Shown here: piece after piece, positions 3,421 through 59,159 of the stretch
Numbering within the stretch: the stretch's first letter is position 1
Layout of the letters: every line of letters begins with the position of its first letter
IMG/VR virus record: IMGVR_UViG_3300020187_000022
Coordinates: 1 to 64,000 of that record
DNA: 64,000 nucleotides
From: a virus
Direction: 5' to 3' (one strand)
Made by a program: the position numbers and the translations under genes
Notes under the pieces: generated by a model
Seen by the model: the letters and a program-made list of their open reading frames with translations, nothing else
What the model was told of the DNA's origin: nothing
Database searches by the model: none

Positions 3421-3963
3421 ATGCTATCTCAAGAACAAATCAACCAGCTAAAACAAAAAGAAAGTCAAAACTTACTATCTCAACGACTGCAACGTTACCA
3501 CTATTATGGAATATTGGAAGAATACCAATTACATCCAGCCTCAATAATTAATTCATTTGAATATAAAAAGTTAAATCCTTATCAGCACTTCTTATTTAAG
3601 AGAGTGTTACATGGGCTTAATGTTTATACAAAAGATGAAGTTGCTAAGTTACATTGGGATAAGAAGAGGAGAATATCTAAAGTTTGGAAAAGATCTCAAA
3701 GAGAAATCAATGCATGGAAACAAATGATAACTAATAAAAGAGTTAATGGATTCTTTGCAAGAACTTTTACAGGTCCTGCTATGGAATTTATTATATCAGT
3801 TCCATGTGATGAGGTCTTAGAAGACTACCACAACAAGTTGACTTTCAAAGAGTTAAATATAGAGTATGAAGATGTAATATTATTGTTTATGTCTAAAGGT
3901 CTATTACCTAAAAACTATTTAACTTTGAAACCTAATGCTAATCAACAAGCCTTACAAGGATGA
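3421..3963 (+). CDS. Hypothetical basic, helical protein, 180 aa
   Basis: I do not recognise this protein. It is Lys/Arg/Gln-rich and mostly helical, with a basic central segment (residues about 78-110) that could bind nucleic acid and a more hydrophobic, acidic C-terminal third. It starts at ATG 3421, downstream of the three-way-junction RNA. An alternative ATG at 3414 is in another frame that closes quickly. Its end overlaps the HNH gene start (ATGA), so the two are likely co-expressed, and a helper role for that nuclease is conceivable but unproven. Confidence 0.55.
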   Translation: MLSQEQINQLKQKESQNLLSQRLQRYHYYGILEEYQLHPASIINSFEYKKLNPYQHFLFKRVLHGLNVYTKDEVAKLHWDKKRRISKVWKRSQREINAWKQMITNKRVNGFFARTFTGPAMEFIISVPCDEVLEDYHNKLTFKELNIEYEDVILLFMSKGLLPKNYLTLKPNANQQALQG

Positions 3964-36500: not shown

Positions 36501-39415
36501 GTATCATCTTGAGTAGCTAGATCTCTAGTTAATAAATCTCCTGTACTAATATCATTACCTATTGTAAGTTCATCTATTAAATCTTGCTCAGTAAAACCTC
36601 CTTCAATACCAAACTTTTTGTTAGATCTGTTTTTGACTACTTCCTTAACAAAATTAAATATAGCATCATTTACAAGACCTTCTCGCCCTGCTTTTAATAC
36701 ACTACCTCCAACAAGTTTATTTCGTTCTAGTAGTAATTTAAATACTAATGTTTGTTGTGTTGCATTTAAATCTGGTGATTCACTAATATTATATAAGATT
36801 TCATAAGCAGATATAAACCTGTTAAAATTTAAAACATAACTAATAAATTCTCGTTTTGAAACGTTATTTGGATCAGATATATATGCAGTAAACTCTCTAA
36901 TTTGTTTTAGAGCATCACTTAATAATGCAGAATATACTTTTGATTGCTCGTTAGGACCTTTATTCATCCCTTGATTAATGTATGCTAAGGTTCTAATTTG
37001 ATAATCTCTTTGTTCTTTTTCAGTCTTATTAGTAAATACTGTTTTACCCTTAGAGTTTGCTGTTAATGCTTCTTGCATTGCAACAGAATAATTTTCTAAT
37101 GTTGCATAAATAGCATTCACTTCACGCTGAGGTTTAGCCTCTACTGTGGTTTTTGTTTGAGATTTTGCATTAGGATCTTGATCTCCTCTGTATGAAGAGT
37201 TTTCTTGATTCTTAATAGCAGCATCCATTTTTTGCTTATTAAGATTATCTTTTGTAGATGGGATAAGCATATCTACATAGCGTCTGTTTTCACTTGGTAG
37301 AGTTTCTGTATGATCATAACTCCCTTCAAAATTCCAAGTACCTAAGTACTTTTGTTCTTTCCCTTTACCTTTTATATCAACTTTGATATGGAATGTAGAA
37401 GCAGACATATCACCTTCAGAAACAGTGTATCCCATATTTTCAAACATTCTTCTATATAGATTTACTTGTAGATTGTGTTGAGCATTTGTAGAAAGTCTAT
37501 CTACTCCTTTTTGTTTTAGTTTACTATCAGCGGGTAATTCCCACGTTTTTCCTTCGTACCTAGTTTCTTCTCTAAAACCTGTTGCAGTAGGTTTTTTATA
37601 TGTTTCAAGAATAGAATTTTTACTTGTTTTTAAATCTACTATTCTAATACTACCATCTGTTTCTATAATAATTAAATCTGCTGTACCAGCTATTTTTGTA
37701 GCTTTATCAAATACAATTACTTGAGATAAAGCAATACTACCAGGTGGCATTAAATCATTAATTATCACACCCATATCTTTAAATGCTTGTCTTGCCTGTT
37801 CTTCATTAAGAATTTTCATGTCTTTTATTATATCATCAAAATTCTCAAATGCTACAATAGCATCGGCTATGCGGTCAAGGTCATTACCCAGATCTAAATT
37901 TAATTCAACAGACTCAAGCTTTTCAGTATCTAATCTTTTACCCTCTTTAATCTTTTCATTCCATTCCTTAACAGCATCCTTACGTTTTTGACCAGTCAAG
38001 TTTTTGATAGCTTCTGCTTTAGCAATTTTAGCTTCACCCTCCTTATTGGTAAGCTGACCTTTTATTGCTGTAGTAGCTGATGTATATACCTCGCCATTAA
38101 GTATATCCATATAAGTATGAGACTTCTCATCAAACACCATGATGGTATCTGATTCATTTGCATTAGCAGCACTTACAGATAATGTTTCTAGTGGTTTACC
38201 CGGAGCATGTTTAGCCACATGCATAAGTTTGTCCACTATTTCTTTTTGTATACCATTTGCAGAATCTTTAGCTTTGTCTATAACCCTTTGCTTTTCGGGG
38301 CTTAAAGAATACTTTACTCTTATATCTTTACGGATATTAAGATCAAAGTTTATTGCTTCTGTATTTAAAAGTTTTGCAATGTCACTAAACGTTGCAGTAG
38401 AACTAATTTGAGAAATAGGTATGGATCCTCCCGTTATTAGTTCGTGAAAATTATTGATTACTGATTTTAACCACTCCAATGCTTCTTTAACTAAATTAAC
38501 AAAAGAAGTTGTAGGTTTTGTTTCATATTCTTTTTTGAAGTGTCTAGCTAGAGCTTGAGTTACTATCTCCATATCTCTGTCTTGATTGCTAAACCTTTGG
38601 CTAGAACTGTATGCAGCTTTAATACCTTCTACCATTTCTGGGAAGTTATTTTTTGCTTCAGAAAGTAAGCCATTATATAATGTAGGATTCTCGTTTTGTA
38701 TAGCATCTGTAAATGGATGTAATACTTCTTCTATAGCAATTTCATTTGTTACTCTACCCTTAACTAATATTACACGTCCTTGATAATAAAATGAATTTAC
38801 ATTATTAAAGCTTGAATCTTTTACTCTCTTTGATTTAGGAATGAGAGCATGCAGCTTTTTTGCTTCCTTAACACTTAAAACATTAATTGTTAACTGAGGA
38901 AATAGTTTACTAAGATGTGTTATAACAGAAACAGCTCTTGTTTGATCCCATGCTCGTGTTTTAGGAAGCATGTCTTTAGGTGTAATAACTTTAGGATCTA
39001 TGCTTATATATCTAGTTAACGGATTTATAGCTTGAGTTCTTGTAACAACATTTTGTGGTATATTATTTATTTTAAGATACTGACTAATTAAGTTATCATG
39101 ATATTTAAAAGCAGCTTTACTTGCTTGCCAATCACCTTTGAAGGTTCTTTTAACCATCATTCTGCCACCAAAGCTTACAATGTACCCTTTATCTTGTAAA
39201 TTTTTTAATACACTTTCACCAAAAGATTTTTGTTTTAATGCGTAAGCTAACTTAGATTTTTTAGTATACTCTGCAGCTTCTGTTACAGTAGGAAATGCAT
39301 CACTATCTTTAGTTTTTTGCCAAAGGTTAATTACGTTATTTGTTGCTATTTCAGTTTTATACACTGATTGCAACGCTTTATATTCCGCTGTATTTTTGTT
39401 AGGACACTTAGCCAT
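33584..39415 (-). CDS. Giant virion protein with embedded PD-(D/E)XK nuclease, 1943 aa
   Basis: Last gene of the virion operon. Residues about 215-300 resemble a zincin domain in which the motif reads EEVLHPF (E229-H233), so the first zinc His is replaced. Residues about 430-690 hold a RecB/Cas4-type nuclease: SHTYMDILNGEVYTS, GTADLII with D580, RIVDLKTSK with D594 and K596, and LQVNLYRRM as QxxxY. The remaining 1200 residues are largely helical, like ejected internal proteins of podoviruses. A nuclease delivered with the genome could trim DNA ends or cut host DNA. Nuclease motifs are clear; virion location is inferred from operon and size. Confidence 0.75.
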   Translation of the reverse strand: MAKCPNKNTAEYKALQSVYKTEIATNNVINLWQKTKDSDAFPTVTEAAEYTKKSKLAYALKQKSFGESVLKNLQDKGYIVSFGGRMMVKRTFKGDWQASKAAFKYHDNLISQYLKINNIPQNVVTRTQAINPLTRYISIDPKVITPKDMLPKTRAWDQTRAVSVITHLSKLFPQLTINVLSVKEAKKLHALIPKSKRVKDSSFNNVNSFYYQGRVILVKGRVTNEIAIEEVLHPFTDAIQNENPTLYNGLLSEAKNNFPEMVEGIKAAYSSSQRFSNQDRDMEIVTQALARHFKKEYETKPTTSFVNLVKEALEWLKSVINNFHELITGGSIPISQISSTATFSDIAKLLNTEAINFDLNIRKDIRVKYSLSPEKQRVIDKAKDSANGIQKEIVDKLMHVAKHAPGKPLETLSVSAANANESDTIMVFDEKSHTYMDILNGEVYTSATTAIKGQLTNKEGEAKIAKAEAIKNLTGQKRKDAVKEWNEKIKEGKRLDTEKLESVELNLDLGNDLDRIADAIVAFENFDDIIKDMKILNEEQARQAFKDMGVIINDLMPPGSIALSQVIVFDKATKIAGTADLIIIETDGSIRIVDLKTSKNSILETYKKPTATGFREETRYEGKTWELPADSKLKQKGVDRLSTNAQHNLQVNLYRRMFENMGYTVSEGDMSASTFHIKVDIKGKGKEQKYLGTWNFEGSYDHTETLPSENRRYVDMLIPSTKDNLNKQKMDAAIKNQENSSYRGDQDPNAKSQTKTTVEAKPQREVNAIYATLENYSVAMQEALTANSKGKTVFTNKTEKEQRDYQIRTLAYINQGMNKGPNEQSKVYSALLSDALKQIREFTAYISDPNNVSKREFISYVLNFNRFISAYEILYNISESPDLNATQQTLVFKLLLERNKLVGGSVLKAGREGLVNDAIFNFVKEVVKNRSNKKFGIEGGFTEQDLIDELTIGNDISTGDLLTRDLATQDDTLLAVIDKIYKEQKQILLDKIAFRENVLSTAANKLLKLDGRSKNQIYDFMLDFDSEGKRAGTYVKEIGGLYSDKQFELRQALIDVNGHMYQYRDVKDILKAKKEDIDYNIDLALKKRANSNFWRAERSDENGNRIDGEYHRYTDEFLQERRKWETWVSNGTYGKWQRKIGVKDAEYDQFILKYFDTTRYNKAENDVDGNPTGVIEKNAKGLFPKVKYRVANPFTINEDGTLGQDMRSEKYKAIFDPTKTDALSIAQREFYEIYIQYYEKELLAKLPDNTRQQMLGKVPLVRDTLLDDIKNKSGFFTKMFAGTVRSVKNLVTETATQKTVLLDENGNFINSMPVGFTGSPRVDGALEAVEAELVDLENIYKKGRMAPERYKADKAVLEGRLAKLRIQPSVGEISSDLGSSLLKFSAMAEHYEVMGEIEDTLAAIIRVITNKEYSPSDKNTTLLGRTSTGILKKVGFTKETSGESNVLKRAQAYMSMVYYDNELVSQGFFDKFANALISQSSLAYVAFNPFGNFNNYLMGRINNNIEMLGSRFFTKKSYFRASKEYNVTALPGIIQRTGSGVGDIADIATLGLLGLNKSDYDPDKANNKYEAFVDLFRMMDDSTDIRESSRKNDTKSLWSRFKAWGYVMQDAAEYNVQTKVGIAMLMDTDVLNESTGETLSLYDAMQFNGQTHELSLPEGFTKVINKDGTIEEYTDKWRYAFRNKVREVNKQIHGNYAAEDRMVIQSYTLGNLAAQFHKWVAPAIRARFQGEYFDENLGWMEGRYKSFWKFLAYSKQQIWAGNRDIRKFGEGFKKVTADQGGGFAEQRASNKLFGVYRTMGEISIMMTVSLINTIMDSVLAGDADDDDTKKRLKHLARYQGDRLYKELVLFIDPVQMFQMAKSPIVSAKALGNLGEALKLSFWTPAGYIIKGKDGFYADSEYVYQNKPNKGQLKVNKAWRDAMPILYSIQKWENLIKEQKFLAN

Positions 39416-39427
39416 AGTTTATTATTG

Positions 39428-42400
39428 TTATAGTATACAATTATTTATTTCATCCATGAAAACTTCTTCAGAAGTCATTTCATCTGTTGGTATATAAGTA
39501 CCCTCATTAAAAGCCTTAATCATTTTACTGAAAGGATATAATTTTTGCTCACGCAATTTAGCCTTTTTTTCTGGGAAAGGTTCTATTTGCTCTTCCCAAT
39601 ATACTTCTAATGCAACGTTTACATCTGTTAAATCTGCTTCAAGCTCAAGCTGTAAGTCTGATTGTAATTGTGCAGCTCCTTCCATTTCTAAGCTTTCAAC
39701 TTCACTAGTTTGTTGTGCTGGTATTGTACCGCCTTCCATAACATCTATTTGTAGTAAAGCAACTATCGTAGCTCTGGCTTCAATATCTATTTTATCTTGA
39801 GTTAGAAGATCTCTTCCGTTTTTCCAATAAACAGACTTATCATTATTGTTTATATGATCTTGTTCATGTAAAACTAAAAATGTATTTATTAGTTTATTAC
39901 TACTTAACAGATTTGTAATTCTATCCATAGACCAACCTTGAGCAGCAACAGCTTCTAAAACTTTTGCTTTTTGTTTAGATGTTATACCGCCTTCTTGTCC
40001 GGTAAAGTAATCAAAGAACTTAGCTCTACCATCTTCGCCTTCTACAGGGTTTAATGTTATTGTAGTTCCGTTTGTGCTTGCATACCTTATAGACTCATCT
40101 TGATTTTGTAACTGTCTGTTAATTTTATATTCTGGAATTTCTAAACTTCTAGTGGGTGCTGCTATTTTAGGTTCTATTTCTGAAATATCTTTACCGTCAA
40201 GTTTAACAGATGTGTTAACCCCAACCTCTACTTCAACAGAACCGTTTCTTAATACTTCCTCTAATGCAGCAGTTTGCTCAGCTTCTAATGAATCATAATC
40301 TATTTGTTCATCTTGATTATATACTCCATCAAGATTAGTATCACTACCATAGTTTTTCTCTTTAACACTCTCTCTTACTTCTTGGTAAGTTGGTCTTTCA
40401 CCAAACATAAAACCAATACCATTTTGCTGATTTGATCCGTATGTTTCTGCTTTATTAAAGACCCTAACGCTTTCATTGCTTTTTTCTCCATCTACTTTAA
40501 ATGTTACATATGTATCATTACCCATTGCATCTATAGATCTGTATCTTGCATATTCTAAATCGCTTGCTTCAGGATTATTATTTAATGAAACAGTTAAAAT
40601 ACCATCCGATATACTAACACCTTTAGATTTTGAATTAAATGTATTTAATAACGAGTTGCTAATATTAGATTCTAAATAACCACTTACAAATTCTTTAGAA
40701 AGTTCTTCTTTAGTTAAACCAAACACCTCTTTCATTTTTATATCAGAGCCATCACGTAAAGCAATGTTTGCTGTTTGTATATGACTTAAGTACCCGTTCA
40801 TTATAAAGGGGCTCACAGCATCCATCAAAGTACCATAAGTTAATTGTAGACCATCTTTAACCATCATATAGTTAATTATAGCTAAAGCACTATCGCGCAT
40901 AGTTGCTGAGCCATATAACTTAGCAAAAGATGTCTGTAAATCTATTTTTTGTAATTTGTTTAAGCTTCTAAATGTATTTGCTTCTACAAGATTTAAACCT
41001 GTATTATTATCTTTATTTGTATAAGCATTTGTAACAGCAAAAGTTTCTAAAAAGAAATTATCTTTTCCTATATCAGTTGCTCTCATATCCTCAACTAACT
41101 TATCTATAGATTGTAAATCAGAAGGATAAATAAATTCATTACTTAATGTTGCAATGTTTTGCCCTTTTGTTTGATAAGCTTTGATTGTTATGTATGAGAG
41201 TAAATCTCTTGATATCTTTGCTTCTACTTCCTCATCATAACCACTTGACTCTGTATCTACATTTGTTAAAATTTTGTCCATTATATTTTTAAACTCTGGA
41301 CTTGCGCTTAAAAATGTAGAAGGTAATAACTCTGTACGAACCTCATTGAAAATTTCTAAATACTTAGCTTGCCATGTGTCTTTTAAATATATACTAGATA
41401 AATCCATTATCGCTTTAGGATCTAGCAACTTATCTATTTGATTAGACTTTTTGTTAATTGCAGCCATGTCTTTTCCTAAACCTTGTGTTAAGTTAGAAAC
41501 AGCACCCATATTAGCTGTAAATTTACTAACTGTATTACCAGCCTTAAACAATTTAAGTATGGAGAATAAAGTTTGTTCATCTACTTCATTTGGTAATTTA
41601 ATTGAATTTATTAATAATTCGTTTGTTACAGAAAGAGCCTTAAACTTTTTACCCTCTGGGTTCAAACTTTCAAGCATGTTGTCTACTAAAGTATCTACTC
41701 CAGGGTCCATCTTTTCCTTCTTGTTTAATGCTTCATTATAAATTTCTTGTATAATAGGATTGTTTATTAGAAGTAAAGAAGTATTAATAGGAACACCTAA
41801 TGCTGTTAGATTACCAACTAAACCTAATGCAGATTTATTTAAACCAAGTTTAGCAACCAACCTTTCTTTTGCATTATCTGTAGCCATAGTAATCAAAGAA
41901 GAAATGATATCTTGTTTTCTAAGACCTTTTTTTGTTTTAGATAACTTTTCTCTAAGAACACCGAAGTCATTATAAGTAATACCATTAATTACAATACTAG
42001 GAGCATTGCTTTTTAATTTTATTTTGTATTCAGTTAATAAACTTAAATACTGATTAGGTAAAACAATTGCACCAATAGCAGCGCCCTTGTTAGCCTTAAA
42101 GGCTTTTATCTTACCTAGTATATTGTCAATATCAATATTATCTTCTCTTGATCTTTCAGTCAAAGGAGATATACCATTTTCTAGTTTGGTAATTTCTTGT
42201 AATACTTTCCATTCATCTTCAAGTATATCTAGTGCAGCAGCTGTATAAGAAATTGGAGTCTCTTCTGTAGTAGATTCTGTAACACCTCTGTTACCCATTA
42301 ATGCATATTTGTAATCTAAAATGTCATTATTTAATGCAGCTACATATGGTTCTCCGTTTTTCTTTTTATAAGTAATATATTGTTGTTTAGATATAGGAAG

Positions 42401-45400
42401 ACCTAACATCTCTAGTGCAATAATTGCATCTTGATATTCTTTTCCTAAAGCATCGCTTACAACTAATACAGAAGAGTTGCTAACTTTTATAGCTTGGTCA
42501 TCTTGTTTATACAAGCTTAGTGCTTCATTATAGATAGAACCTTTTTTTGCTACTTGATTTTTTACATACTCTATATAATCGTTGTATTGACCCTGCTCAG
42601 TAGTAGCTTTACCATACTCAATAAAGTTTTTATCTTTTACATACCATTCTTTAATTTGACTGTATACTTTATCTATATCAAAATCCGCTCCTGATATTTC
42701 AACAAGCTCTCTGGCAAACATAGCAACAGATCCGTATACAGCAGGTAAGAAGTCTACATATTTAGTATTAATTGTAGAATGATTATCTTGAGATGGGATA
42801 CGTATTGCAAACATCTTTGATACAACATCTGGAATTAATTCATTAGTGTTTTCTATTAAATCCATTACATCAGCAAAATGAGAAGGCATCATCATTTCAG
42901 TATATCTCTCTCCTGTTTCTTTACCCTTGCTATCATATGCTTTAACACCAGCTCTTAGACGATCTTGTATTACTACAAATCCTCCTTTTGGTATTTTAAC
43001 CTCAGACCAAGTTGGCTCAGCATTAGTGTCTAATCCGTTTGTTGGATCAACTAAAGCCGGTTTATTTTTCATTTTATTCCAAACACCTTCTCTAATTATT
43101 TCTGAACGTTCTGGAATACCATTGCTATCAAAGCTATATACTTTTCTATATACGCCTACACCAAAGTCAGAAACTAAAGCTAAAGAATGACCAGGTAACT
43201 TTTCTGATAAACTACCCTTACTTAAATATGTTAAGAATAATCCTTCAAATTTATTTACAGTTATAGGATTGTTTAAATCATATTGCTGTTCTCCATTTAC
43301 AGTATTAAAAAATTCTAGTAAATTACTGCTTGATTCTGATGCTTTTAAACCTGCCTGAGCATATCTTAAAAATGCTGTTAAGTTAGGAGTAATCTTATTT
43401 TGTTTAACTGACACTTTTAACTCATCCATTAAACCTACACTACCATCTTTCTTTTTAAATGTATAAACTAAATTTCTTTTGTTCTTAAATTTAAGCTCAA
43501 CTCTTTTTCCAGTAGCTTTATTATATTCTTTTCTGATTTGACCTACTGTTAAACCTAGCGCTTCTACATATACATTATCTTTTTGTTCTGATGTTATAAT
43601 GTTTTTAATTTGTGTAGGATCAACAATTTCTAATTTGTTAGATGGCATCTCTACTTGCAACCCTAAATTTTTAGCACTTAGCTCAGAAGGACTGTTTGTA
43701 AAATCATTTGTATTTTCTAATTCACTTAAAGATATAACATCTTGCTTAAGCATTTTATATGCACTCAATGGTGCTGCTATAGCAATTGATTCACTCTTTG
43801 CTTCTTCTGCTTCTAACTTCATTCTTAAGTTATGCAGTTTCATCATATTAGGTTTAGCTTCCCATATTGGTGTTTGACCTTCTTCAGCAATGTTATTTGA
43901 TGTAAGCTGTGGTATTAATGGGAAAGCAGACATTTTAATAAATGTTCTACCATCTGCATATACTAACTTTCTTGAATTTAGCATAGCTCCATTTTGCACA
44001 AAACCATTTTCACCAAATATTTCTTCTGAAGTAATATCTTCACCCCGTTCTACTCTATCTAGTAAAGCAGCTTGCATTGGCGTAAGTTTTCCAAAGCCAA
44101 ATTCAGTATACCTTAAACCTTTTGTAGTATAATATAATTGAGCATCTGCTTCTTCAATGTTTTTGTTTGTGCCTAATGAAGATTTACCAATAGGTTCTTC
44201 TAATACAAATCCACTTACTTTATCAACTATATGATTAACACCTAACTCTGGTGCTGTTATAGCACTATAAGCACTAACCGTTGCTGCATTTTGTGCTTTT
44301 GCTCTTTTAATTGCATCTACACCATTCTTTAAAGTTACTGCTTGGTCACCTAATAATATTTCGTTTAATGCTTTTGTATTAACCCAATCATTAAAAAAGA
44401 TTTGTTTCAGGTTATGATCAGCATCATCAATTAGGTTTAACATCTCAGCACTTTCTTCAAAGTTAGCGGATATATCTAAACCATTTTTTATACTATTACT
44501 AATTTCTTGATTTAAATTTAAAGTTACTAACTCAGATTTAAATTCAGCAAATTGATCTTCTAATATGTTATTAAGTTCAGATTTAAACTGATCTCTTGTC
44601 ATGTTAATCTCATCAAGAGCTTGATCTAAAGTTATATCCCCTCCTCTATTAGCTATTTGTTCTAGTTCTGTTTTAACTTGTGGTGATAATAATAACTGAG
44701 AGTTATGAAGTTTAAAAGCTCTTCCATCATTATCTTGGTTATAACCTACTATACTTCTTTCTGTTTTTGTTTCAACGTTTCTTTCTCTTTTGATACGGTT
44801 GAACTCTGTTTCAATAGAGTCAAGGTAAATATTTAATGTCTCATCTGTTATAGTAGTAATACCATTAGATGTTTCTACTGCTCTTAAGACAGGCATGTAA
44901 GCCATATCACCTGTGTTAGATGATTCCAATACTCTTAATAATATAGGTGCTAGTGCAGTTTTTACTTCTTCATTTTCTGCATTATTAAAGTATTCTACAA
45001 AATCAACTCTTCCGGATTTTGTATTAACTAATGCGGTGTATGAGTTTATTAAAGTTAAAGCAAATTCTTGAGGAGTAAAATTACCATAAGTAGATCTTGA
45101 ACTTACACCTGATATATTTGCATTAATTTCTTCTTCTGTTTTGTTTATTTTACCTACTGCAGAACCGGCAAATCTTAAAATCTTTTGTCTTTGATCCGCA
45201 CTTAATTGTACAAAGGCATCACTATTTAAAAGATAATTGTTTTCTAAATAAGGAAACTGTGCTTTCAAACCTTCTAATTGATCCAGATCATTTAATTTTT
45301 GAATAGCTTTTAAATGATATGTAGGTTTCTGATGTGCATAAACTAAATTACCTTCAGCATTTTTGAATACAGACAAACCAATTGTTTCATCAAAAGGAGC

Positions 45401-48400
45401 ATTTCTAATTGCCATATTTCTAAGTCTAGAATTCATACCTCCTTCACTGTATAAGTCAACACCAGTTTGGATTAACTTTAGCATTTCTACAAAGTCTTCA
45501 GATATAACAGCAGACTCGTTAGAGTTTGCATTAATAAGTGCTTTTTGTTTTACAGTTAATACACTAACAGGTTTGGCAGAAACTATACTAAATGCAATAA
45601 ATTGTCTACTTAATTTAATACCAATCAGCTCAGATAAAGCTTCTTGATATTTTTTAGATTCTTCTGTTAAACTTTTATTGGTAATTTTTTTATTTGAAGA
45701 AAGTAAACTTTGTAAATCATCTAATGTATTTTCAGTTCTAGTTTTAACTGCAGATTCAGATTTAATTATTTTATCTTTTTGAGTCCAAGCTTGTGCCCAC
45801 CTGGTTACCTGAGAATTTACATCATCTCTTTGCGCGGCAGAATACATTAATACATTACCCGCATTATCACGTTGAGTAAATAAATAATCTACTCTAAAGT
45901 TTTCAAAAGCTTTTGTAAATGCTTGAAACAGCTGTGGATTTTTAATCTCTAAAGGTAATGGACTATCTGATAATAATGTTTCAACACTTACTCCAATAGA
46001 AGAGAGTAGTTTACTTACAACAGCACCTGTTTCTAAATTATCTTGACCAAAGAAATACATGTTTTGTAACATGGCTTTTGGATTTTCAATATTTTTAACA
46101 GACTTTAATAAACCATTATATACATCTACAAAATCTACAGGTACTATAAGCGTTTCTCCTGATACCAACTCAGCATTACCAAAGTAATCTGTTGCTTCTT
46201 TAGTTGTAGTTGCTATAAAAGCTCTAATGTCTTTAGGTGTAGACTGAATACCACCTACCATAGAGGCATCTTTACCCCATTCATCTATACCTCTTAATCC
46301 AATAGAATTCTCCATTGTTTCTTGATTGTACTCTTCTTCTCCAACTTGACTATCTATTACATTTAATAAATTGAAAACTTGATCTTTAATTATACCGGGT
46401 GATTCATCAAGTGCTATACTTACTTGATCTAGTAGTTCTATTTCTCTTTCTGATTTGTTTGCATATCTTTGATCAGCAGAATTATATAACTCATAAAAAT
46501 CATCCATTACACTATTTAAAATGTCAGATTTTTTAAGTAGAGGATCTGTATTTTTATATGATCTGTTTAAATACATTGCCGCTATACTTCTAATTAAAGG
46601 ATCAGCTACATCATTATCTACATATAAAAATCCTTTTCTAACAACATCTTTTGTGCTTCCATCTGGTTGTAAAACTTCAGTTATTTCTTCCGTCTCGTCA
46701 TATGGTAATAAAGCGTTAGCTTCTAATGTAACACCCGCTTGACTAGTAAATTGATTAACTACTGGTGTAGATGAATAGTACTTACCTGAATCTATATTTT
46801 CAAACAGAGTATTTAAATCATTTTTACTATAAGACTTAAAAACAGATTCTATCCATTCCAAAATTCTAGTAAATAATGATTTTACTTCTGAAGATGTGTT
46901 AGTGTTTTTAGGACCTGTTTTAAATAACTCAAACTGATCTGCTAAATACTCTTCATAGTATTCTTGTTCTAATCTAGCGTCACTCATATTTGTATATGTG
47001 TTAGCTGAACGTCTAAATATTTCTAATTCCTTCTTCAGACTTTTACCTTCTGATCTAAGTTTTGCTCTCACTTCTTTTCTAGCAATACCCAAATACTTAG
47101 TTATTTCTACATCTGATAATAGCATTCTAAATACACCATGAAAAGCTTCATGATATCTGAATGGGGAATTAGCTCCGGTATAAATTGTACCATTGATTGT
47201 TTTACCACCAGCAATATTATTCAAGTTTAATACAAAAGCACCAACTCTTTCACCACCTGCTTTTAAATTATCCCCTAATAAAGTAATATCCTCAATACTT
47301 ATAAAGTCAGGTAAGTTTTCTTCAGCCCATAACATAAAAGTATCTATGTCTTCTACATCTGTAATAGATAGAGAGCTTAGTATTTTATTAGCAGAACTCA
47401 TTATAGCAACTTTTTTTGCTAAAAGCTTTTGATACTCTTCGCTTTCTCTTAGAGCTTTTGATTGTTCTTTTCTACTTTTACCTTCTTGCAATTTTGCTTT
47501 TAAGGCTTTGATTTCAGCTTTTACTTTAACCAGCGGAGAATCTTTTACTTCTACTGCTTTGTCAATAACAACTTCTTCAACAGGTTCTTCTGTTGTTGGT
47601 ACTACTTCAGCAGCACGATCTTCAGCAGAAGTGCTTTGAGTTGTATTATAAGCTGCTTGTTCTGCTCCAGGATCTGCAAACAATTGAAGTGAAGAAGGGC
47701 TTGTAACTGATTTGATTACATTAGTAGTTGTTAGTTCTAATAGTTGTCCAATAGATGCATTTCTAGGAAATGATGATGTAAAGTTTTTAGCACTCAAAGA
47801 TATTTTCTGGTCGCTAATTGTTTTATTATCATTAAATTCTTGTATGAAATCATTTATTTTTTTAGGATTAAGTATTCCCTCATCCATTATAGTATCCTTA
47901 CTTAACCTAACTGTTTCCAAACGGTTTTCATTTACAGATACTTGTAATTCTATTTTACCCCATGGACTAACTTGCAAAGAAATATTAACACCTGGGTTAT
48001 TTGTAATAAACAATTTTTCATTTAATGCTTTATTCCAAACTCGTAGAGCTTTTAATTCTTTGGATCCTTTTTTAAGTTGTGTGCCTGCACCTTTAGGTAA
48101 TTGACCTATAACTTTTTGAGCTTGTGCAATTGTTTCAAGCATTAACTCATCAAAGTTTAATGGTTCAGCTGCTAAATTAACTAAGCTATATGTTCCATTA
48201 GGCATTAACACAACGGCCATATACCCATCAGTACCATTTAACATTTCCTCATACCTATAACCTAGTGAAGCCTGCACCTTATTTAACAGTTCACGTCTTG
48301 CGGTGCCTTCTAAATTTGTCACACCAGTAACTGTTCTTGGTTGACCCTTTAAACTTTTTTCAAGTTTATATATTAAATAGTTACCGTCTTCATCAGCACG

Positions 48401-51400
48401 GTTATAATCTAATTGATTTAAAGTTCTTGTAGAACTATTATCATAATCTGTTTTTCCTAATTGTAAATTAAAAGATATGTCATTAGGTAAGTCACTTACT
48501 TTAAGTGTAATAGTTTCTCCTGAGATTTCATCATAGAATAAACCATTCAAGGTGTTAGTTAAAACCTGACTAGTAGCAAAATTCTTTTTAATTAATTCTA
48601 ATGCTTGTTGTGCAGTAAGTTCCTTTTGCAAGTACTCCGGCAATCTAATTAAATTATTTGCTTGATCAATTGTAAAATTGTTAGGTTTTAGTTCTACACC
48701 ATTAGCTTCAAAATAAAAGTTTTCTGTATTAATAAAACCAAATATACCTTGAGCATCTGTGCTAGGATCAATCCCTGCAACTGATAAGGCTTTATTTATC
48801 TTACCCAGTATACTTGGATCGCTTGTCTTAATTCCAATTATATATTTTGATTGTATTTTTTGTATATACTTATTAGGTTGATTTCCAGGATATACATATA
48901 ATCCTTTTTGTTTACCAGCTTCAGGATCTAATGTAATAACAAGTTCAAGATTTTTAATTTCATCTTGCGTTAAAGCAGATATAATAGCATTGTATCTATT
49001 TACACCCTCTTGATATGTTTCAGTAAACTGACCTTTATCATTTTTGTTTCTATAACCATAAGGAGTAACTGGTTCTGACACATCTAATCTAGATACATCA
49101 TCTGCAAGAATATCCATGTCTATCTTTTGTAGATCATAAAAACCTTTAAATGCTCCAGGTTTTACATATACTAAAAACTCTTTCTTTGCATCAAATGACA
49201 AATCACTTTTATCATTTGGAATCAAAGTTAAATTTTTACCTTCTAAAATTTTATTAGGCTTACTTAAGATTTTATATTCAATAAGGTTACCTTCCTTGTC
49301 TTTCTTATATACAAGACCCCCGGTATTTAATGTTTCACCATCATATACAAACTCACCCGCACTACCATAATCTTTTTCAAGATTTACTAATATTTTTCTA
49401 GCATCTTCTGGATCTGTAAATAATCCAATACTTTCTCCATATTCTTCTAGTAACTCTAAACCTACTGGTTCTTTAGTTTTTGAATCTATAATAGTATATG
49501 ACTCTATAGGATTACCGTCAGGATCAGGATATGTTTCAGTTATTATTGAAAAGTTAGGACCAGCTTGGAATACAGTTTGAGATGAGTTGCCTTGAAAGCT
49601 CTCGCCTTCTGCTTCCATCAGTACTGTTTGCCCTGTAATATCAGATAATGATACATTAAGTTTTTGTAATACATCGGATACAAGGTTATTTTGTAAACCA
49701 TTATCAGATGATAACCAATTAATAAATAATGTATCATCTAATTTTTGTTCTTCTGTAAGTAAATTGTTTGGGTTTATTAATTTATCATTAGCAATCCATA
49801 TATTTTTTAGTGCAGAAAATGCATTTCTGAAATTCTTGGCGGATTCACTATTAATCCATTCTGAATAAGGAAGTGTCTTACTATTGATTTGCCCTGCTTG
49901 ATAATTTTTATACTGTATTAAAAGTAAATCTTTATATACATCAGAATTAGACGGCGCTATTTCTTCTTCAATACCAAGTTCTTCTAAAGAGGCATTCACT
50001 TCTTCTCTATTAGCTGCTTCTATCTCTGCTTCTACTTTACTAATCTCAGCCGCTTCAGTCTCCTGAGCTTCTTTTTTACTAGTAGCATTATATACTTCTA
50101 GCAAACCTTGTATCTCAGCATATAACAAAGGGTTAACAGCTTCTGTTATTTGACCGTTCTTATTATAGAACTCATCTAAAAATATAGTTGACCCTGTAAG
50201 TAAAAATGCCTTGGCTTTTTCAGGAGCTATAATTACATTTCCATTATCTAAACCAGCTATCTGATTTACTAATTCGTTTTTCTTGTTTACTTCAGCGTAT
50301 TCTTCAAGCACCGCTTTAAAGTCATCAGACAAATTTTCAAAGGCATTAGTAAATACTTGATTTTGTCTTTCAAAAATTTCATTAAACCTTTCAGGATTAT
50401 TTAAATACTCTATAGTTTTATCATAGGTCTTAGCTCTTCCCTTTAAAGCTTTGTAATCAACTATATCTTTTAGTGCTTCTCTTATTGCTTCTTTGTTTGC
50501 AAAAGTACCTTTACTATTAGCTAAATATTTTACATAGTTTTCAAATTCAGGTAATAGTTTATTGGATACTTTTGATTTATTAAATGAACCATCTTTATTT
50601 AAATTTTTGGGATCACTTAAAATAACTTCTAATGCAATTAATCTTTCTTTTTTATCAGTCTTATCTTTTATTATTTTTTTATTTTGTTCTGTATCACCTG
50701 TCAATACAGATAACTCAGCCTCTAAATTTGATAACTCTTGATTTATACTATCTTTATCTAATAAAACAGTAATATCACTTGCTGCCATATCTTTAAATAA
50801 AGGATCTGACGCTAACGTTTGATAAATACTATTTGATCTTTCTAAAGCTCTATCAAACCCATCCTTTGTAAACATATACAAATAGTTTGCATGAGCCCAA
50901 GCTGCTTCTTTAATTGCTTCTTGTTGATATTCTTTAGTTCCTTTTTTAAATTGTTGTCTATCAAAAGGATTAGGAAAATCATCTTTCCTATTATTGTAAT
51001 CATTCTCAGTTTTTTCAATCTGATTAATCATACTTTGAAAACGCTCTCTTGCTTTTCCGCTTTCTACTTCTTTCTTACTAGCAAATCCGGCATCAATAAG
51101 TTCTTGATCACTTAGTTTATTATAATCTTCTAATTGATTTTGAAATATCTGTCCACCCCCAGTACTTAAGACTGTATATATTTGTTGAAATTTACCAAAG
51201 TCTTTTGCATCAATAAAACCAAATCTATCATCTGCATAGTTAGACTGAGTAAGTTCACCAGCTACTTGCTTTTGAATTAAAAAGTTTAATTTTGCAGGAT
51301 CCCATAATTGTGATGGATCTTCAGCTTGTTGATTCCAAGCTTCATTATATGACTTTACAACATTTTTAACCCAATTTTCTTGAGCTTCATTTTGTTGAGC

Positions 51401-53260
51401 GTAAGCTGCTTTTGCTTCAGCACTTCCATACTTTCCTTTAGCTGCTCTGTATGTAGCGGGTATTCCTTGGAAAAATAATTTTTGTGGTCCTTGTACAATA
51501 CCACCCATTAAGAAACCAGACATAAATGTTTCAAAACCCTGAGAACTAAACTGTGAACTTACTGCAGAATGTATTGATTGTTTATAAAGATCATATCCAC
51601 CCGCTGTTGGATCAGTAAATACATTTTTATAATAATCATTTGTTGCTCCAGAAATAGCTTCTTGTCCAATTTCTTGAAACCCTTCCGCAAAGTTAGCAGA
51701 AAAGAATCTTAAACTTGCACCTGCTAATTTTCTAGTATTACCTTTTATTCCAGCAGAACTAACTCTGTTAAGTAATCCTGTAAAACCTGTACCTGCATCT
51801 TCAAATACATTTAATAGTTTTTTACCATCTTTACCAATACCTTTACTTTTTTGTATTATTCTTCTACCAATACCAGTTACTTTTTCATTAGCTAATCTGG
51901 CAAATGATTTATTAAAGCCACCAAAAGCATTGCCTAATACAATTTGATTACTTAGAAAAATTAAAGGTGCATTAGCAAGAAGAGTATCAAAACTAGCTTT
52001 AGTAGCATTATCTTGTATTGACTCTAATTGCAAAGATGTTACAGGATCTCCTAAGTTTTTACTTGATTGTATAGCAAGGTTTTCATTAATCCTTTGGTTA
52101 TAAACCATACCTGCTTCCAAACTACTTTCAGCTAAAGCAAGATTTAATGATCTCAAATCTTTATAAAATCCACCAAAAGTTTTACTGGCCTTGGCCATGT
52201 TGCTTAAATTTTGAGCACCATTTTGAGCAGTCTTTAAAGATCTTATTGCAGCTACTGTTTCTGGTGCAAATACTTTTCCTATAAACTTACCGCCTGTTGT
52301 AAAGCCATTATACACATCTCTTGCTCCATCTACGTTTCTTGCAGCTGTTAACATTTTTTTTGTTGCTGCAGCTATTCTTGTTACTCCAAAACTGTTTGCA
52401 ATAGTTTTACCAAGTCTCACTGTATTTGTTGCAGTTCTAGCTACAAGCGCAGCATCAGATACAGGATTTAAACCACCTTGTAAACCAGCAGCTGCCGCTA
52501 ATGCTATTTCTTCTGCAGCTATACTACCTATAATACCAAATGTATACCCGGCATTTAAAAATAAATTAGTTGTAAATCCTGCACCACCACCTCTTGTTGA
52601 GCTGGCTCTAGCCATTATATCTTCAAACTCTCTAGCTGATTTTAAATCAGGACCAAAAGGATCACCTAAGTTTCTATATACACTTTTAAAACCAACAGCT
52701 GCTAAACTAGCAAGACCACCAAGTGTTCTTGATGCAGCATCCCACTCAGTAGAATTAGTGTTATAATACTCTTCATTATTTGCATAAGGAGAAAAACCTA
52801 ACTCAGCATACATAGGATGATTATAATAACGCATAAAGTTAGATTGCTTTATACTAGAAACTTGAGGTGCAACGGTACCTATACCATTAGCAGGTCCCAT
52901 GTTTTCTTGATTTTGTATAGCATCAAGTCTTTGGTCAAGCATTCTATTAACCCCACCAATTCCATTTATAGTTGGTGGTGTTTTTTGACTTAGAGGATCA
53001 TATGTATTTGTTGCAACAGAAGGGCGTGGCGCACCCATATTAGCCAAGGCACTTATACCATATTTATTTGCTAATGGAGCACTGGCTTGAAGTTGTTGTA
53101 TCTCTGATACATCGGCCATGTCAACATATTCATCATATTCAGGCGTATCAAACATTTCCTCAACAGGAGTAAAAGATTGCTCCTTATCAATTACACTAGC
53201 TGAAGTTTCATTTTGTGCAATTGCATTATCTAAAGTTGTATTATCCAATTGATCTTCCAT
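39428..53260 (-). CDS. Giant virion RNA polymerase polyprotein, 4610 aa
   Basis: One uninterrupted frame. The RNAP beta-prime active site is GADFDID at D3526, D3528 and D3530, preceded by RIPSQDNH with R3487. This mirrors the RAPTLH...NADFDGD order in cellular beta-prime, and DFDID is the variant known in crAss-like virion RNAP (phi14:2 gp66, about 2180 aa). The N-terminal 600 residues are Ala/Gly-rich and amphipathic. A zincin motif HEAFH lies at 2037-2041 with a Glu-rich helix about 65 residues on; a second, HEQDH (4465-4469) with E4494, is near the C-terminus. The protein is twice the length of gp66, so it may be processed by its own peptidases. Confidence 0.85.
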   Translation of the reverse strand: MEDQLDNTTLDNAIAQNETSASVIDKEQSFTPVEEMFDTPEYDEYVDMADVSEIQQLQASAPLANKYGISALANMGAPRPSVATNTYDPLSQKTPPTINGIGGVNRMLDQRLDAIQNQENMGPANGIGTVAPQVSSIKQSNFMRYYNHPMYAELGFSPYANNEEYYNTNSTEWDAASRTLGGLASLAAVGFKSVYRNLGDPFGPDLKSAREFEDIMARASSTRGGGAGFTTNLFLNAGYTFGIIGSIAAEEIALAAAAGLQGGLNPVSDAALVARTATNTVRLGKTIANSFGVTRIAAATKKMLTAARNVDGARDVYNGFTTGGKFIGKVFAPETVAAIRSLKTAQNGAQNLSNMAKASKTFGGFYKDLRSLNLALAESSLEAGMVYNQRINENLAIQSSKNLGDPVTSLQLESIQDNATKASFDTLLANAPLIFLSNQIVLGNAFGGFNKSFARLANEKVTGIGRRIIQKSKGIGKDGKKLLNVFEDAGTGFTGLLNRVSSAGIKGNTRKLAGASLRFFSANFAEGFQEIGQEAISGATNDYYKNVFTDPTAGGYDLYKQSIHSAVSSQFSSQGFETFMSGFLMGGIVQGPQKLFFQGIPATYRAAKGKYGSAEAKAAYAQQNEAQENWVKNVVKSYNEAWNQQAEDPSQLWDPAKLNFLIQKQVAGELTQSNYADDRFGFIDAKDFGKFQQIYTVLSTGGGQIFQNQLEDYNKLSDQELIDAGFASKKEVESGKARERFQSMINQIEKTENDYNNRKDDFPNPFDRQQFKKGTKEYQQEAIKEAAWAHANYLYMFTKDGFDRALERSNSIYQTLASDPLFKDMAASDITVLLDKDSINQELSNLEAELSVLTGDTEQNKKIIKDKTDKKERLIALEVILSDPKNLNKDGSFNKSKVSNKLLPEFENYVKYLANSKGTFANKEAIREALKDIVDYKALKGRAKTYDKTIEYLNNPERFNEIFERQNQVFTNAFENLSDDFKAVLEEYAEVNKKNELVNQIAGLDNGNVIIAPEKAKAFLLTGSTIFLDEFYNKNGQITEAVNPLLYAEIQGLLEVYNATSKKEAQETEAAEISKVEAEIEAANREEVNASLEELGIEEEIAPSNSDVYKDLLLIQYKNYQAGQINSKTLPYSEWINSESAKNFRNAFSALKNIWIANDKLINPNNLLTEEQKLDDTLFINWLSSDNGLQNNLVSDVLQKLNVSLSDITGQTVLMEAEGESFQGNSSQTVFQAGPNFSIITETYPDPDGNPIESYTIIDSKTKEPVGLELLEEYGESIGLFTDPEDARKILVNLEKDYGSAGEFVYDGETLNTGGLVYKKDKEGNLIEYKILSKPNKILEGKNLTLIPNDKSDLSFDAKKEFLVYVKPGAFKGFYDLQKIDMDILADDVSRLDVSEPVTPYGYRNKNDKGQFTETYQEGVNRYNAIISALTQDEIKNLELVITLDPEAGKQKGLYVYPGNQPNKYIQKIQSKYIIGIKTSDPSILGKINKALSVAGIDPSTDAQGIFGFINTENFYFEANGVELKPNNFTIDQANNLIRLPEYLQKELTAQQALELIKKNFATSQVLTNTLNGLFYDEISGETITLKVSDLPNDISFNLQLGKTDYDNSSTRTLNQLDYNRADEDGNYLIYKLEKSLKGQPRTVTGVTNLEGTARRELLNKVQASLGYRYEEMLNGTDGYMAVVLMPNGTYSLVNLAAEPLNFDELMLETIAQAQKVIGQLPKGAGTQLKKGSKELKALRVWNKALNEKLFITNNPGVNISLQVSPWGKIELQVSVNENRLETVRLSKDTIMDEGILNPKKINDFIQEFNDNKTISDQKISLSAKNFTSSFPRNASIGQLLELTTTNVIKSVTSPSSLQLFADPGAEQAAYNTTQSTSAEDRAAEVVPTTEEPVEEVVIDKAVEVKDSPLVKVKAEIKALKAKLQEGKSRKEQSKALRESEEYQKLLAKKVAIMSSANKILSSLSITDVEDIDTFMLWAEENLPDFISIEDITLLGDNLKAGGERVGAFVLNLNNIAGGKTINGTIYTGANSPFRYHEAFHGVFRMLLSDVEITKYLGIARKEVRAKLRSEGKSLKKELEIFRRSANTYTNMSDARLEQEYYEEYLADQFELFKTGPKNTNTSSEVKSLFTRILEWIESVFKSYSKNDLNTLFENIDSGKYYSSTPVVNQFTSQAGVTLEANALLPYDETEEITEVLQPDGSTKDVVRKGFLYVDNDVADPLIRSIAAMYLNRSYKNTDPLLKKSDILNSVMDDFYELYNSADQRYANKSEREIELLDQVSIALDESPGIIKDQVFNLLNVIDSQVGEEEYNQETMENSIGLRGIDEWGKDASMVGGIQSTPKDIRAFIATTTKEATDYFGNAELVSGETLIVPVDFVDVYNGLLKSVKNIENPKAMLQNMYFFGQDNLETGAVVSKLLSSIGVSVETLLSDSPLPLEIKNPQLFQAFTKAFENFRVDYLFTQRDNAGNVLMYSAAQRDDVNSQVTRWAQAWTQKDKIIKSESAVKTRTENTLDDLQSLLSSNKKITNKSLTEESKKYQEALSELIGIKLSRQFIAFSIVSAKPVSVLTVKQKALINANSNESAVISEDFVEMLKLIQTGVDLYSEGGMNSRLRNMAIRNAPFDETIGLSVFKNAEGNLVYAHQKPTYHLKAIQKLNDLDQLEGLKAQFPYLENNYLLNSDAFVQLSADQRQKILRFAGSAVGKINKTEEEINANISGVSSRSTYGNFTPQEFALTLINSYTALVNTKSGRVDFVEYFNNAENEEVKTALAPILLRVLESSNTGDMAYMPVLRAVETSNGITTITDETLNIYLDSIETEFNRIKRERNVETKTERSIVGYNQDNDGRAFKLHNSQLLLSPQVKTELEQIANRGGDITLDQALDEINMTRDQFKSELNNILEDQFAEFKSELVTLNLNQEISNSIKNGLDISANFEESAEMLNLIDDADHNLKQIFFNDWVNTKALNEILLGDQAVTLKNGVDAIKRAKAQNAATVSAYSAITAPELGVNHIVDKVSGFVLEEPIGKSSLGTNKNIEEADAQLYYTTKGLRYTEFGFGKLTPMQAALLDRVERGEDITSEEIFGENGFVQNGAMLNSRKLVYADGRTFIKMSAFPLIPQLTSNNIAEEGQTPIWEAKPNMMKLHNLRMKLEAEEAKSESIAIAAPLSAYKMLKQDVISLSELENTNDFTNSPSELSAKNLGLQVEMPSNKLEIVDPTQIKNIITSEQKDNVYVEALGLTVGQIRKEYNKATGKRVELKFKNKRNLVYTFKKKDGSVGLMDELKVSVKQNKITPNLTAFLRYAQAGLKASESSSNLLEFFNTVNGEQQYDLNNPITVNKFEGLFLTYLSKGSLSEKLPGHSLALVSDFGVGVYRKVYSFDSNGIPERSEIIREGVWNKMKNKPALVDPTNGLDTNAEPTWSEVKIPKGGFVVIQDRLRAGVKAYDSKGKETGERYTEMMMPSHFADVMDLIENTNELIPDVVSKMFAIRIPSQDNHSTINTKYVDFLPAVYGSVAMFARELVEISGADFDIDKVYSQIKEWYVKDKNFIEYGKATTEQGQYNDYIEYVKNQVAKKGSIYNEALSLYKQDDQAIKVSNSSVLVVSDALGKEYQDAIIALEMLGLPISKQQYITYKKKNGEPYVAALNNDILDYKYALMGNRGVTESTTEETPISYTAAALDILEDEWKVLQEITKLENGISPLTERSREDNIDIDNILGKIKAFKANKGAAIGAIVLPNQYLSLLTEYKIKLKSNAPSIVINGITYNDFGVLREKLSKTKKGLRKQDIISSLITMATDNAKERLVAKLGLNKSALGLVGNLTALGVPINTSLLLINNPIIQEIYNEALNKKEKMDPGVDTLVDNMLESLNPEGKKFKALSVTNELLINSIKLPNEVDEQTLFSILKLFKAGNTVSKFTANMGAVSNLTQGLGKDMAAINKKSNQIDKLLDPKAIMDLSSIYLKDTWQAKYLEIFNEVRTELLPSTFLSASPEFKNIMDKILTNVDTESSGYDEEVEAKISRDLLSYITIKAYQTKGQNIATLSNEFIYPSDLQSIDKLVEDMRATDIGKDNFFLETFAVTNAYTNKDNNTGLNLVEANTFRSLNKLQKIDLQTSFAKLYGSATMRDSALAIINYMMVKDGLQLTYGTLMDAVSPFIMNGYLSHIQTANIALRDGSDIKMKEVFGLTKEELSKEFVSGYLESNISNSLLNTFNSKSKGVSISDGILTVSLNNNPEASDLEYARYRSIDAMGNDTYVTFKVDGEKSNESVRVFNKAETYGSNQQNGIGFMFGERPTYQEVRESVKEKNYGSDTNLDGVYNQDEQIDYDSLEAEQTAALEEVLRNGSVEVEVGVNTSVKLDGKDISEIEPKIAAPTRSLEIPEYKINRQLQNQDESIRYASTNGTTITLNPVEGEDGRAKFFDYFTGQEGGITSKQKAKVLEAVAAQGWSMDRITNLLSSNKLINTFLVLHEQDHINNNDKSVYWKNGRDLLTQDKIDIEARATIVALLQIDVMEGGTIPAQQTSEVESLEMEGAAQLQSDLQLELEADLTDVNVALEVYWEEQIEPFPEKKAKLREQKLYPFSKMIKAFNEGTYIPTDEMTSEEVFMDEINNCIL

Positions 53261-53290: not shown

Positions 53291-56200
53291 TTACTTTTTG
53301 CCATTAACAGCAACATCTTTATTTTTTGCCTCTGTGTTTGCTTTCACTTGAAGCGCTATTAAGTTTTTTACCTCTTGTTCCATAGCTTCTAAAATACTCA
53401 TATTCCCCCCATATACAGAACCCATAGGATTTATATTAACTTGTCTAGACACAACACCTTTACTTACATAAGAACCACCAACACCATTAACAGATGGTTT
53501 GTATGCTTGTATTTCGTAGTTTAATGTATAGTTTTGAGAATTAATTTTTTGAAAAGAATAAGCACCTCCAGGATCAGCATTTGGGCCAGGTACATTTTTA
53601 GAATAATATCCATTACCTGCCTCAACTAAAGATGCAATTGCAGAGTTATTAGTCATTTGTTTATTACGAGAACCTTGGCTTATATCAACATCTTGATCAA
53701 ATGTAAATGTAATACCATTTTCCATAATCTTTTTTCTTATAGTTGGGGATAATCCAGCCCATTGACTGTCTCCACCGCCTCCTTTAACTTTGGAATCTTG
53801 CCAAGCGTCAGAAGGGAAAAACTTATATGCTGCTTTTGTTTTTTCCGGATTTTCTGGATCTCCAAATGTATTAGCATATACTATTTTACCTTTAGGAGTT
53901 TCTTTTATATTTGTTGAAACTTTACTATTACTTCTCATAGCATACCAGTCCATACCAAAATCATCAAGAACTGCTTGAGCAATAGGACCTTCTTCTTTTG
54001 CATTTTCTAATTCTGTAATATATAAAGTAGGTTTTGTTCCTTTAGCTAAACCTGATTTTATTTGATTTAACATATCCGCATATAACTGATCTCCTTTACC
54101 TTTAACCTCTGAGTTAATAGGAAGGCTTATGGCTGCATAATTTTGTATATCTGCAGTAGTACTACCAGCTCTTCTTTTTACACTATCATATGTTGCTACA
54201 TCTATTTCCCCAGCTCCTATATTTCCTTTAAGAACTTCATTCTGTTGTTCTTGTAATATTTCATAAGCTTCTTCAGCTTCATTCCTAACCTCACGCACAG
54301 ATATATTACGCACCTGCTTAGGCATATCTATAGGTCTATCACCCCTTATTTTTTGTACTGCTGGTCTACCGGTATCTTCTGTAGTATATTGTAACCCCGG
54401 TGCGTCCTTAATAAAGTAAGGTGTTTCACTGTTGAAAACACTTCTAACAACATTCATATCCTTTCTACCCATGGTTTTATTTACCATATAGTTTTCATCT
54501 GGTCCATTAAATCCAAAATTATCTATACCAGTTAAATCAGGGTTTTGTAATTTTCCTTGTCTTGCATTTTCTATAGCTCTATCTACATATTCTTTCTTAG
54601 TTAGCATTACCATTAAATCACTTTCACCCTTCTCCCATATATCACCAAATCCTGATTCTATTAGAGCTTGGGAATCTTCCAAGTCATTTCCTTTTAATAA
54701 CATTTTAGAATCTAAATAAGCCTCATATTGTTTTTTTGATGACGTTTTAAAATCCATATTAGAATTAGTAATAGAATTACTTGTTTGAGAAAATGCATCT
54801 AACAAAGGTTTATAATTACCAGAACTTGTAAAATCAATATTATTTTTTTTAAGAGCTTCGGGATCATTTAATGAAGACTCATAATTTTTCCATTGTTGTT
54901 CTATAACACTTCTATTAACATATGTTTTAACACCGTTTTCATCTTCTGTTTGTTGACTTAAAAAAGATCTTAAATTAGGTATAGACATGTTTTCAGTTAC
55001 TGTTTCGCCATCTTTTATATACTCAACAGGAATTATAACTTCTTCTGATCCTGCAGTTGCATTTAATTGTGTAGCAGCAGAAATAACATTATTAATTTGA
55101 CTTTCTAAATTTAATTGATCATCTTTTAATTTTGATTTAAGAGACATTTCATATACATCATCACCCTCTTGCCAAACAGTTGTTTCTGGCATTGTAAAAT
55201 CTGTTGTAGGATTACCTAATGCATCTAGAGTTGCATCGTTTGGATCACCTACTTCACCCTTTAACACCGCTAACTTATAAGCATCAGATGCTTTTTGTGC
55301 TTGTAAATCAAATGCTAAATTTCTTCTTTCTGTCAAAGTTGCAGAAAGTTTAGCCATATCATGTTCAAATTGTTTACTTTGCTTAGCATACTCATTAACT
55401 CTCATAGTAGACTCCATGTCACGCATACTAAATGCTTTAGCTGCTTTTAACATATCACCATGCATGTTAGTTAATTGTAGCAATTGATATGCCCTATTTA
55501 AATTACTTTCTAAATCTGGAGAACTAGTAGCAGCAACATCTCTGATTTTCATTCTATTTTGTAAACGAGCACTAGTAGCATCAAAGGCACTTTGAGCCTC
55601 TTTCATTATTTTTTCATCATCAGATCCAGGTATAATACCATTTGTTTGCTGATAATTACTCCACCTTACTGTTGACTTTTGTTGTTGAGCTAATTTTTTT
55701 GTACCGTCAGTAATATCTTTATTATTATTTGCTTCTATTCTTTTAATAGTTTCTACAGCCCAAGCATTCTGACCTTCTTCTACACTACTAAATGCTCCCG
55801 CAGCCATACCTTCTGCAGCAAAATCTCTTCCTGCTACATATGCTTGTGTACGATATGCATTTTGAACTCTTGGGTCATCTTGTAATCTTTCTTGTATCAT
55901 TGCTAATGCAGGACCAGTTACTGCTTCTCCATTAGTAGTAGTGATTATCCAATCTCCATTTACTTTTCCTTTAGTAATTGTACCATCTGCATTTACCACA
56001 TCGGGGTCTTTACCAAAGTGATCAAATTTCATTTTTAATGGAGGCTTCATTTCACTTAACATCTTGTCAGCCATCTTACCTAAATCTGCATCTGGAGTAT
56101 AACTATATAGTTTTGCATCTAAAGCTTGATCAGGACTCATGTTTATAAAGTCTTCCATTCTATATTGCAACTCCTTAACACCATCTGCCCACCATAAATC

Positions 56201-56602: not shown

Positions 56603-56661
56603 ATTATAAAATTACTAAAATTTGTTAAGTTTACAAAGGTAAATATTAAAACCTTTGAGGT

Positions 56662-59157: not shown

Positions 59158-59159
59158 AA

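Follow-up and report, generated by a model that had tools for sequence, protein, structure and literature searches.

Virion RNA polymerase blocks of crAss-like phages and their counterpart in the window

In the closest described systems, the crAss-like phages crAss001 and phi14:2, three large proteins, referred to here as A, B, and C, are encoded by separate genes: gp47 (A), gp50 (B, catalytic), and gp49 (C) in crAss001 and g067, g066, and g065, respectively, in phi14:2. All three crAss001 proteins have been detected in virions by mass spectrometry (PMC10172136), and the annotation of phi14:2 g065 to g067 is based on MS/MS. Elsewhere in the group the trio is partly fused: B is joined to C in Carjivirus, cr110_1, and Rudgehvirus, and A is joined to B in the Suoliviridae phages cr4_1 and cr55_1. 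According to a review, crAss RNA polymerase genes reach about 6000 aa (PMC10136315). Giant size and fusion are known traits of the group and are not new here; the protein described below is of a known crAss RNA polymerase kind, with an accessory domain added. Virion presence and early-promoter activity are known for its homologues only (PMC10172136; PMC10136315).

The locus lies in a 64,000-nucleotide stretch of DNA (the window) within a virus record of 68,335 bases. An open reading frame of 4610 codons runs uninterrupted from an ATG start (P0001, positions 39428 to 53260; this and all other window features given here lie on the minus strand). The gene that follows encodes a C protein (P0002, gp49/g065 class, 1943 aa, positions 33584 to 39415; blastp E = 2e-27 against crAss001 gp49), and large tail or cargo genes lie upstream, so that the transcription block is found beside tail genes. 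The first-pass annotation had described a single 4610-residue frame, and every motif that it named was recovered in place: an RxP motif (RIP, residues 3487 to 3489, positions 42794 to 42802) located 39 residues before the DFDID catalytic triad (residues 3526 to 3530, positions 42671 to 42685), and two HExxH sites, HEAFH at residue 2037 and HEQDH at residue 4465. From the composition of the chain, 0.005 HExxH sites are expected, and the two observed are therefore far beyond chance. By the same measure, DxDxD is expected 0.93 times and so carries little meaning by itself; the expectation for DFDID is 0.0025.

The proposal that the chain is a crAss-type virion RNA polymerase is supported by alignment. 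Residues 3422 to 3895 aligned with crAss001 gp50 (blastp, E = 2e-13) and residues 3482 to 4173 with phi14:2 gp66 (blastp, E = 2e-6), and residues 2798 to 3121 aligned weakly with gp66 residues 686 to 1039 (E = 0.003). As a single sequence the chain returned nothing useful from Pfam, PHROGs, or the PDB, and profiles alone worked. With a profile built from 40 relatives, the solved gp66 structure (6vr4) was the sole significant match (E = 2.3e-12), in two colinear stretches, from which we infer the presence of two double-psi beta-barrels. RxP and DFDxD were invariant in 10 of 10 aligned Crassvirales sequences, DFDID is invariant in the window's clade, and a C-terminal segment, GSNQQNGIGFMFGERPTY (positions 40385 to 40438; GSNQQxxIGFMFGxRPTY), is conserved in much of that clade. 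By homology, the B half is a member of the Crassvirales virion RNA polymerase class (gp66/gp50).

The chain had also been described as about twice as long as gp66. The lengths agree with this (4610 versus 2180 residues), but what makes up the additional half is another virion protein and not more polymerase: the length is doubled because the polymerase is fused in frame to a cargo protein of the gp47 class. The A part comprises residues 1 to about 2220 (positions 46601 to 53260). Its zincin region aligns with the C-terminal end of crAss001 gp47, and the approximate boundary was placed from how long A and B are in split relatives. The B part, assigned by homology, runs from about residue 2221 to the end (positions 39431 to 46600). 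Among the window's roughly 80 environmental relatives, such a fused A-B chain is the rule. The chain resembles gp66 and gp50 in its catalytic RxP and DFDxD region, its two colinear homologous stretches, and the virion location of homologues. Unlike these proteins, which have a cysteine at both ends of the split protein, it is fused to A, is without B's N-terminal cysteine, and carries the HEQDH domain as an insertion close to its C-terminal end. Closer in architecture are cr4_1 gp26 (4491 aa) and cr55_1 QOR58155 (4551 aa), which are A-B fusions with equal spacing (HEAFH at 2002 and 2001 and DFD[IV]D at 3433 and 3445, respectively) and have an adjacent C protein with an N-terminal cysteine, as in the window. 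They differ from the window in having no HEQDH domain and in the intact HExxH of their C proteins, and the sequences are weakly similar. As a separate observation, the polymerase gene is broken at the DFD triad in bajarodcaudo virus 1 (L110 9413-17596) and cr116_1 (L113 13095-23960), where the pieces are separated, in an intron-like arrangement, by a gene of the endonuclease type or another gene.

HExxH domains of the trio

The first-pass annotation had counted two possible zinc peptidases in the chain. For HEAFH (residues 2037 to 2041, positions 47138 to 47152), assignment as a metallopeptidase-type site is favored by conservation and homology. The motif lies in a zincin-like domain (residues 1978 to 2172, positions 46745 to 47329) conserved in 52 sequences. 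The H, E, and H of the motif and E2103-E2104 (positions 46949 to 46954), a candidate third zinc ligand, were invariant in 52 of 52, a set for most of which HEAFH was the sampling key. YHEAFH recurs near the C-terminal end of crAss001 gp47, Dulem41, and the Suoliviridae A parts, and Intestiviridae A proteins have HExxH, one of them being annotated as a zincin fusion. Both crAss001 gp47 and Carjivirus gp45 ("RNAP associated protein fused to zincin protease") resemble the window chain in having a zincin-like HExxH domain near the C-terminal end; these are separate proteins with a terminal cysteine, whereas the window domain is fused upstream of the polymerase and has no junction cysteine. The structural model of the HEAFH domain was without a confident beta-sheet and had no Foldseek match, and a profile of the domain matched Pro-Pro endopeptidase 6fpc weakly (E = 0.03). 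Conservation and homology support HEAFH as an old, invariant, metallopeptidase-like site that ends the gp47 part. A cysteine switch, in which a terminal cysteine caps the HEAFH zinc, was rejected because fused chains retain HEAFH without a junction cysteine.

HEQDH (residues 4465 to 4469, positions 39854 to 39868) lies in a domain roughly 140 residues long (residues 4370 to 4510, positions 39731 to 40153), and HEQ[DS]H is present in nine of nine aligned sequences of the domain. The downstream Glu that had been noted earlier is E4494 (positions 39779 to 39781), a candidate third zinc ligand in the next helix and likewise invariant (9/9). The model is confident (block means of pLDDT, 79 to 98 over the first 140 residues) and shows a small alpha/beta fold in the order strands, active helix, and Glu helix, placing HExxH and Glu on neighboring helices; a Foldseek search of the PDB found no match. 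The model matched only proteins of phage RNA polymerase blocks, namely the "ART-PolyVal-like" chain of cr116_1 (E = 1.4e-4) and, with a weaker E value, a podovirus "RNA polymerase." The cr116_1 chain is a polyvalent-type injected protein of which one domain matches, the functional link being by name only, and Pfam detected no ART domain in the window chain.

Most of the clade is without this domain: about nine contigs carry it. Its position varies: it follows the FMFGERPTY segment in L004 and L022 as in the window, precedes that segment in L005, and in L098 is embedded in the C-class protein. This variation argues for a mobile accessory module, and an ancestral domain was rejected on the same distribution. 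The L098 protein itself (L098 6666-14927, 2754 aa) has three HExxH motifs, including the mobile HEQDH at 519, and an ADP-ribosyltransferase-like YHGTG stretch comes after them. The C protein of the window has a degenerate zincin-like site, EEVLH (residues ~225 to 245, positions 38681 to 38743), in which the first His of HExxH is lost; its homologues in cr4_1, cr55_1, and phi14:2 keep HExxH. A PDDEXK-like nuclease stretch in the same protein (residues ~536 to 601, positions 37613 to 37810) matched Pfam weakly (E = 0.003, below the cut-off).

Cysteines at facing protein ends

The sole cysteine of the 4610-residue chain, C4608 (positions 39437 to 39439), is third from its end, and the sole cysteine of the C protein, its proposed partner C4 (positions 39404 to 39406), is at residue 4, so that the two occupy facing ends. 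Among complete ends in the window's clade, a cysteine was present among the chain's last 10 residues in 83 of 83 cases and among the first 10 residues of the next protein in 82 of 82. With all three proteins separate, as in crAss001 and phi14:2, cysteines occur at the C terminus of A, both ends of B, and the N terminus of C; in phi14:2 the facing residues are g067 C1797 and g066 C3 at one junction and g066 C2179 and g065 C3 at the other. With B fused to C, as in Carjivirus, A|B alone has the pair. Fused junctions have neither cysteine, and cysteines elsewhere in the trio are rare. The pattern holds with A on the opposite strand (crAss001, DAC15, cr116_1, and bajarodcaudo 1). The residues around the end cysteine vary across families and the cysteine is constant, encoded by TGT as well as TGC; many C-class proteins have an N-terminal CPN.

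This rule emerged post hoc from the window and a dozen genomes, was written down, and was then put to a wider test with ten additional annotated genomes, among which the annotated start or an intron had to be allowed for in crAss002, bajarodcaudo 1, and cr116_1, and with loci from three additional viral-collection scans. The final set comprised 238 nonredundant loci, with cysteines counted within about 10 residues of the protein end. At open junctions, a cysteine was found at 180 of 188 B ends, 173 of 176 C starts, 57 of 60 B starts, and 40 of 44 A ends; of the 180 positive B ends, 123 lie outside the clade of the window and were contributed by the later scans. At outer ends, the counts were 2/33 (B-C fusion ends), 1/156 (C ends), 6/60 (A-B fusion starts), and 1/14 (A starts). 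The 2 fusion ends, where a downstream C protein has its own cysteine, and the 6 fusion starts, which are B-like, look missorted by length rather than exceptional, although this re-sorting was made after the result had been seen. Considered as pairs, both cysteines were present at 173 B|C junctions, neither at 4, and one only at 4; the corresponding numbers for A|B were 47, 4, and 3. Fisher p-values for this joint presence disregard kinship and are descriptive only. One exception occurred among the ten genomes (the A-B chain of cr273_1/L238, with a cysteine 50 residues from its end), and four related Suoliviridae-type chain ends have no cysteine in the last 10 residues. No mention of the rule was found in the literature searched, a body that left the 2018 annotation and 2021 structure papers outside and that, on phage cysteines, consisted mostly of display-library work.

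The virion RNA polymerase of phage N4 (L115 4524-15026) belongs to a different, T7-like family. It is like the window chain in being giant, ejected, and purged of cysteines, with none in its 3500 residues or in two neighboring virion proteins; unlike the window chain, it is a single chain with no end cysteines. It carries one HELVH at 2228. In the window, three large proteins upstream of the polymerase gene (1103, 831, and 854 aa; positions 53291 to 61724, minus strand) contain no cysteine, unlike the window's replication proteins. Leptolyngbya phage Lbo-JY46 (L014 7355-20261) encodes a C-class relative of 2748 aa with two HExxH motifs and its sole cysteine at residue 4; the preceding gene encodes 1552 aa with its sole cysteine as the last residue, and no crAss-type DxDxD was seen in either protein.

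Proposed ejection of linked cargo and competing explanations

In crAss001, disulfides stabilize the tail, and cargo must unfold in the tail lumen (PMC10172136); the sections of that report consulted here discuss partial unfolding of cargo on its way through the tail and do not propose an inter-chain link. In the explanation that we favor, the 4610-residue chain is ejected virion cargo of a crAss-like phage, its B half being the early-gene RNA polymerase and its A half gp47-class cargo ending in a metallopeptidase-like domain. Facing cysteines would form an interchain disulfide, here joining C4608 of the A-B chain to C4 of the C protein, and the joined cargo would pass out of the capsid as an unbroken thread by way of the narrow tail. 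The host cytoplasm would then reduce the link and free the subunits. Gene fusion would be an alternative route to the same link, replacing the bond, and the cysteines would be missing at fused junctions for that reason. Both HExxH domains may be accessory cargo activities, with host or envelope proteins more probable targets than the chain itself. The position of the cysteines is what suggests the bond, and it counts against a disulfide that its formation would need to follow assembly and take place in the reducing environment of the cytoplasm. Cysteine purging may be common in ejected proteins, with terminal cysteines the exception. Separate cargo chains joined by disulfides and ejected as one train, with fusion as an equivalent, form the best explanation as a whole, and we judge its prospects of being right to be about even. 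We are slightly less confident in, and propose tentatively, the extension of this scheme to the Crassvirales at large, in which A-S-S-B-S-S-C, linked by paired terminal disulfides, is a single reducible thread of about 6000 to 7000 residues, fusion is interchangeable with the bond, and other cysteines are purged as protection.

The main rival is that the end cysteines are docking or metal-site (zinc) residues in a tail-into-head fit with no disulfide. The pairing rule needs end contact and nothing more, and the frequent CPN of the C class speaks for such a fit; however, the cysteine alone is constant across families while its flanks vary, unlike a docking peptide, single cysteines cannot by themselves fill a zinc site, and the rarity of other cysteines is expected if stray thiols are harmful. 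We consider docking a real contender, though clearly less probable than the disulfide. An independent packaging or modification tag at each end (e.g., for portal or membrane attachment), with pairing incidental, would suit an accessible cysteine a few residues from the end. This is improbable, given that the outer ends of the trio have no cysteine and that the residue is lost exactly at fused junctions and present at both ends of split B. A further possibility is that the cysteine codons are left behind by split inteins acting in protein trans-splicing or by a signal in the RNA where genes meet; crAss-like phages often contain inteins and introns (PMC7886860), and many junction genes are adjacent. 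We give this very little credence: the cysteine is mostly at residues 3 to 8 with no preceding His-Asn, and either codon is used. Split inteins were rejected because intein halves are absent from the ends, and an RNA-level or translation-coupling signal was rejected because an A encoded on the other strand still carries the cysteine.

The first-pass annotation had suggested a self-processing polyprotein, in which the HEAFH and HEQDH peptidases cut the chain or other cargo after entry. The invariance of HEAFH and E2103-E2104 in a domain near the A-B boundary, and the conserved Glu and confident model of the HEQDH domain, are what such a reading would draw on. We found no evidence of cleavage, and we regard self-processing as unlikely, if a shade less so than the tag. 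Split relatives hold the same parts as separate genes: the separate A of crAss001 and Dulem41 still has HEAFH with no A-B junction to cut, and phi14:2 g067 and the A of DAC15 are without any HExxH. The HEQDH domain, moreover, is missing in most of the clade and shifts among places and proteins. The end-cysteine pattern suggests that the parts stay joined. Provided that fusion stands in for the cysteine link, cleavage of the junction ahead of ejection, or in the course of it, would break the connection again.

The proposed disulfide-linked train addresses how several giant enzymes are pushed, in order and before the DNA, through a tail narrower than the folded proteins. A near-strict sequence rule here predicts which protein ends are joined, a prediction testable in cultured crAss001 and phi14:2. 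If true, it would represent a new way of delivering a multiprotein machine through a narrow pore and would provide a simple signature for ejected protein trios in unannotated phages.

Another frame in the window (positions 61791 to 63878, minus strand) runs past its edge; the actual open reading frame (L002 13456-17238) encodes 1260 aa, with LysM repeats, a YkuD L,D-transpeptidase domain, and a lysozyme-like part, and is probably a tail cell-wall enzyme. The gene next to it, outside the window, bears a by-eye likeness to the crAss stabilization protein.
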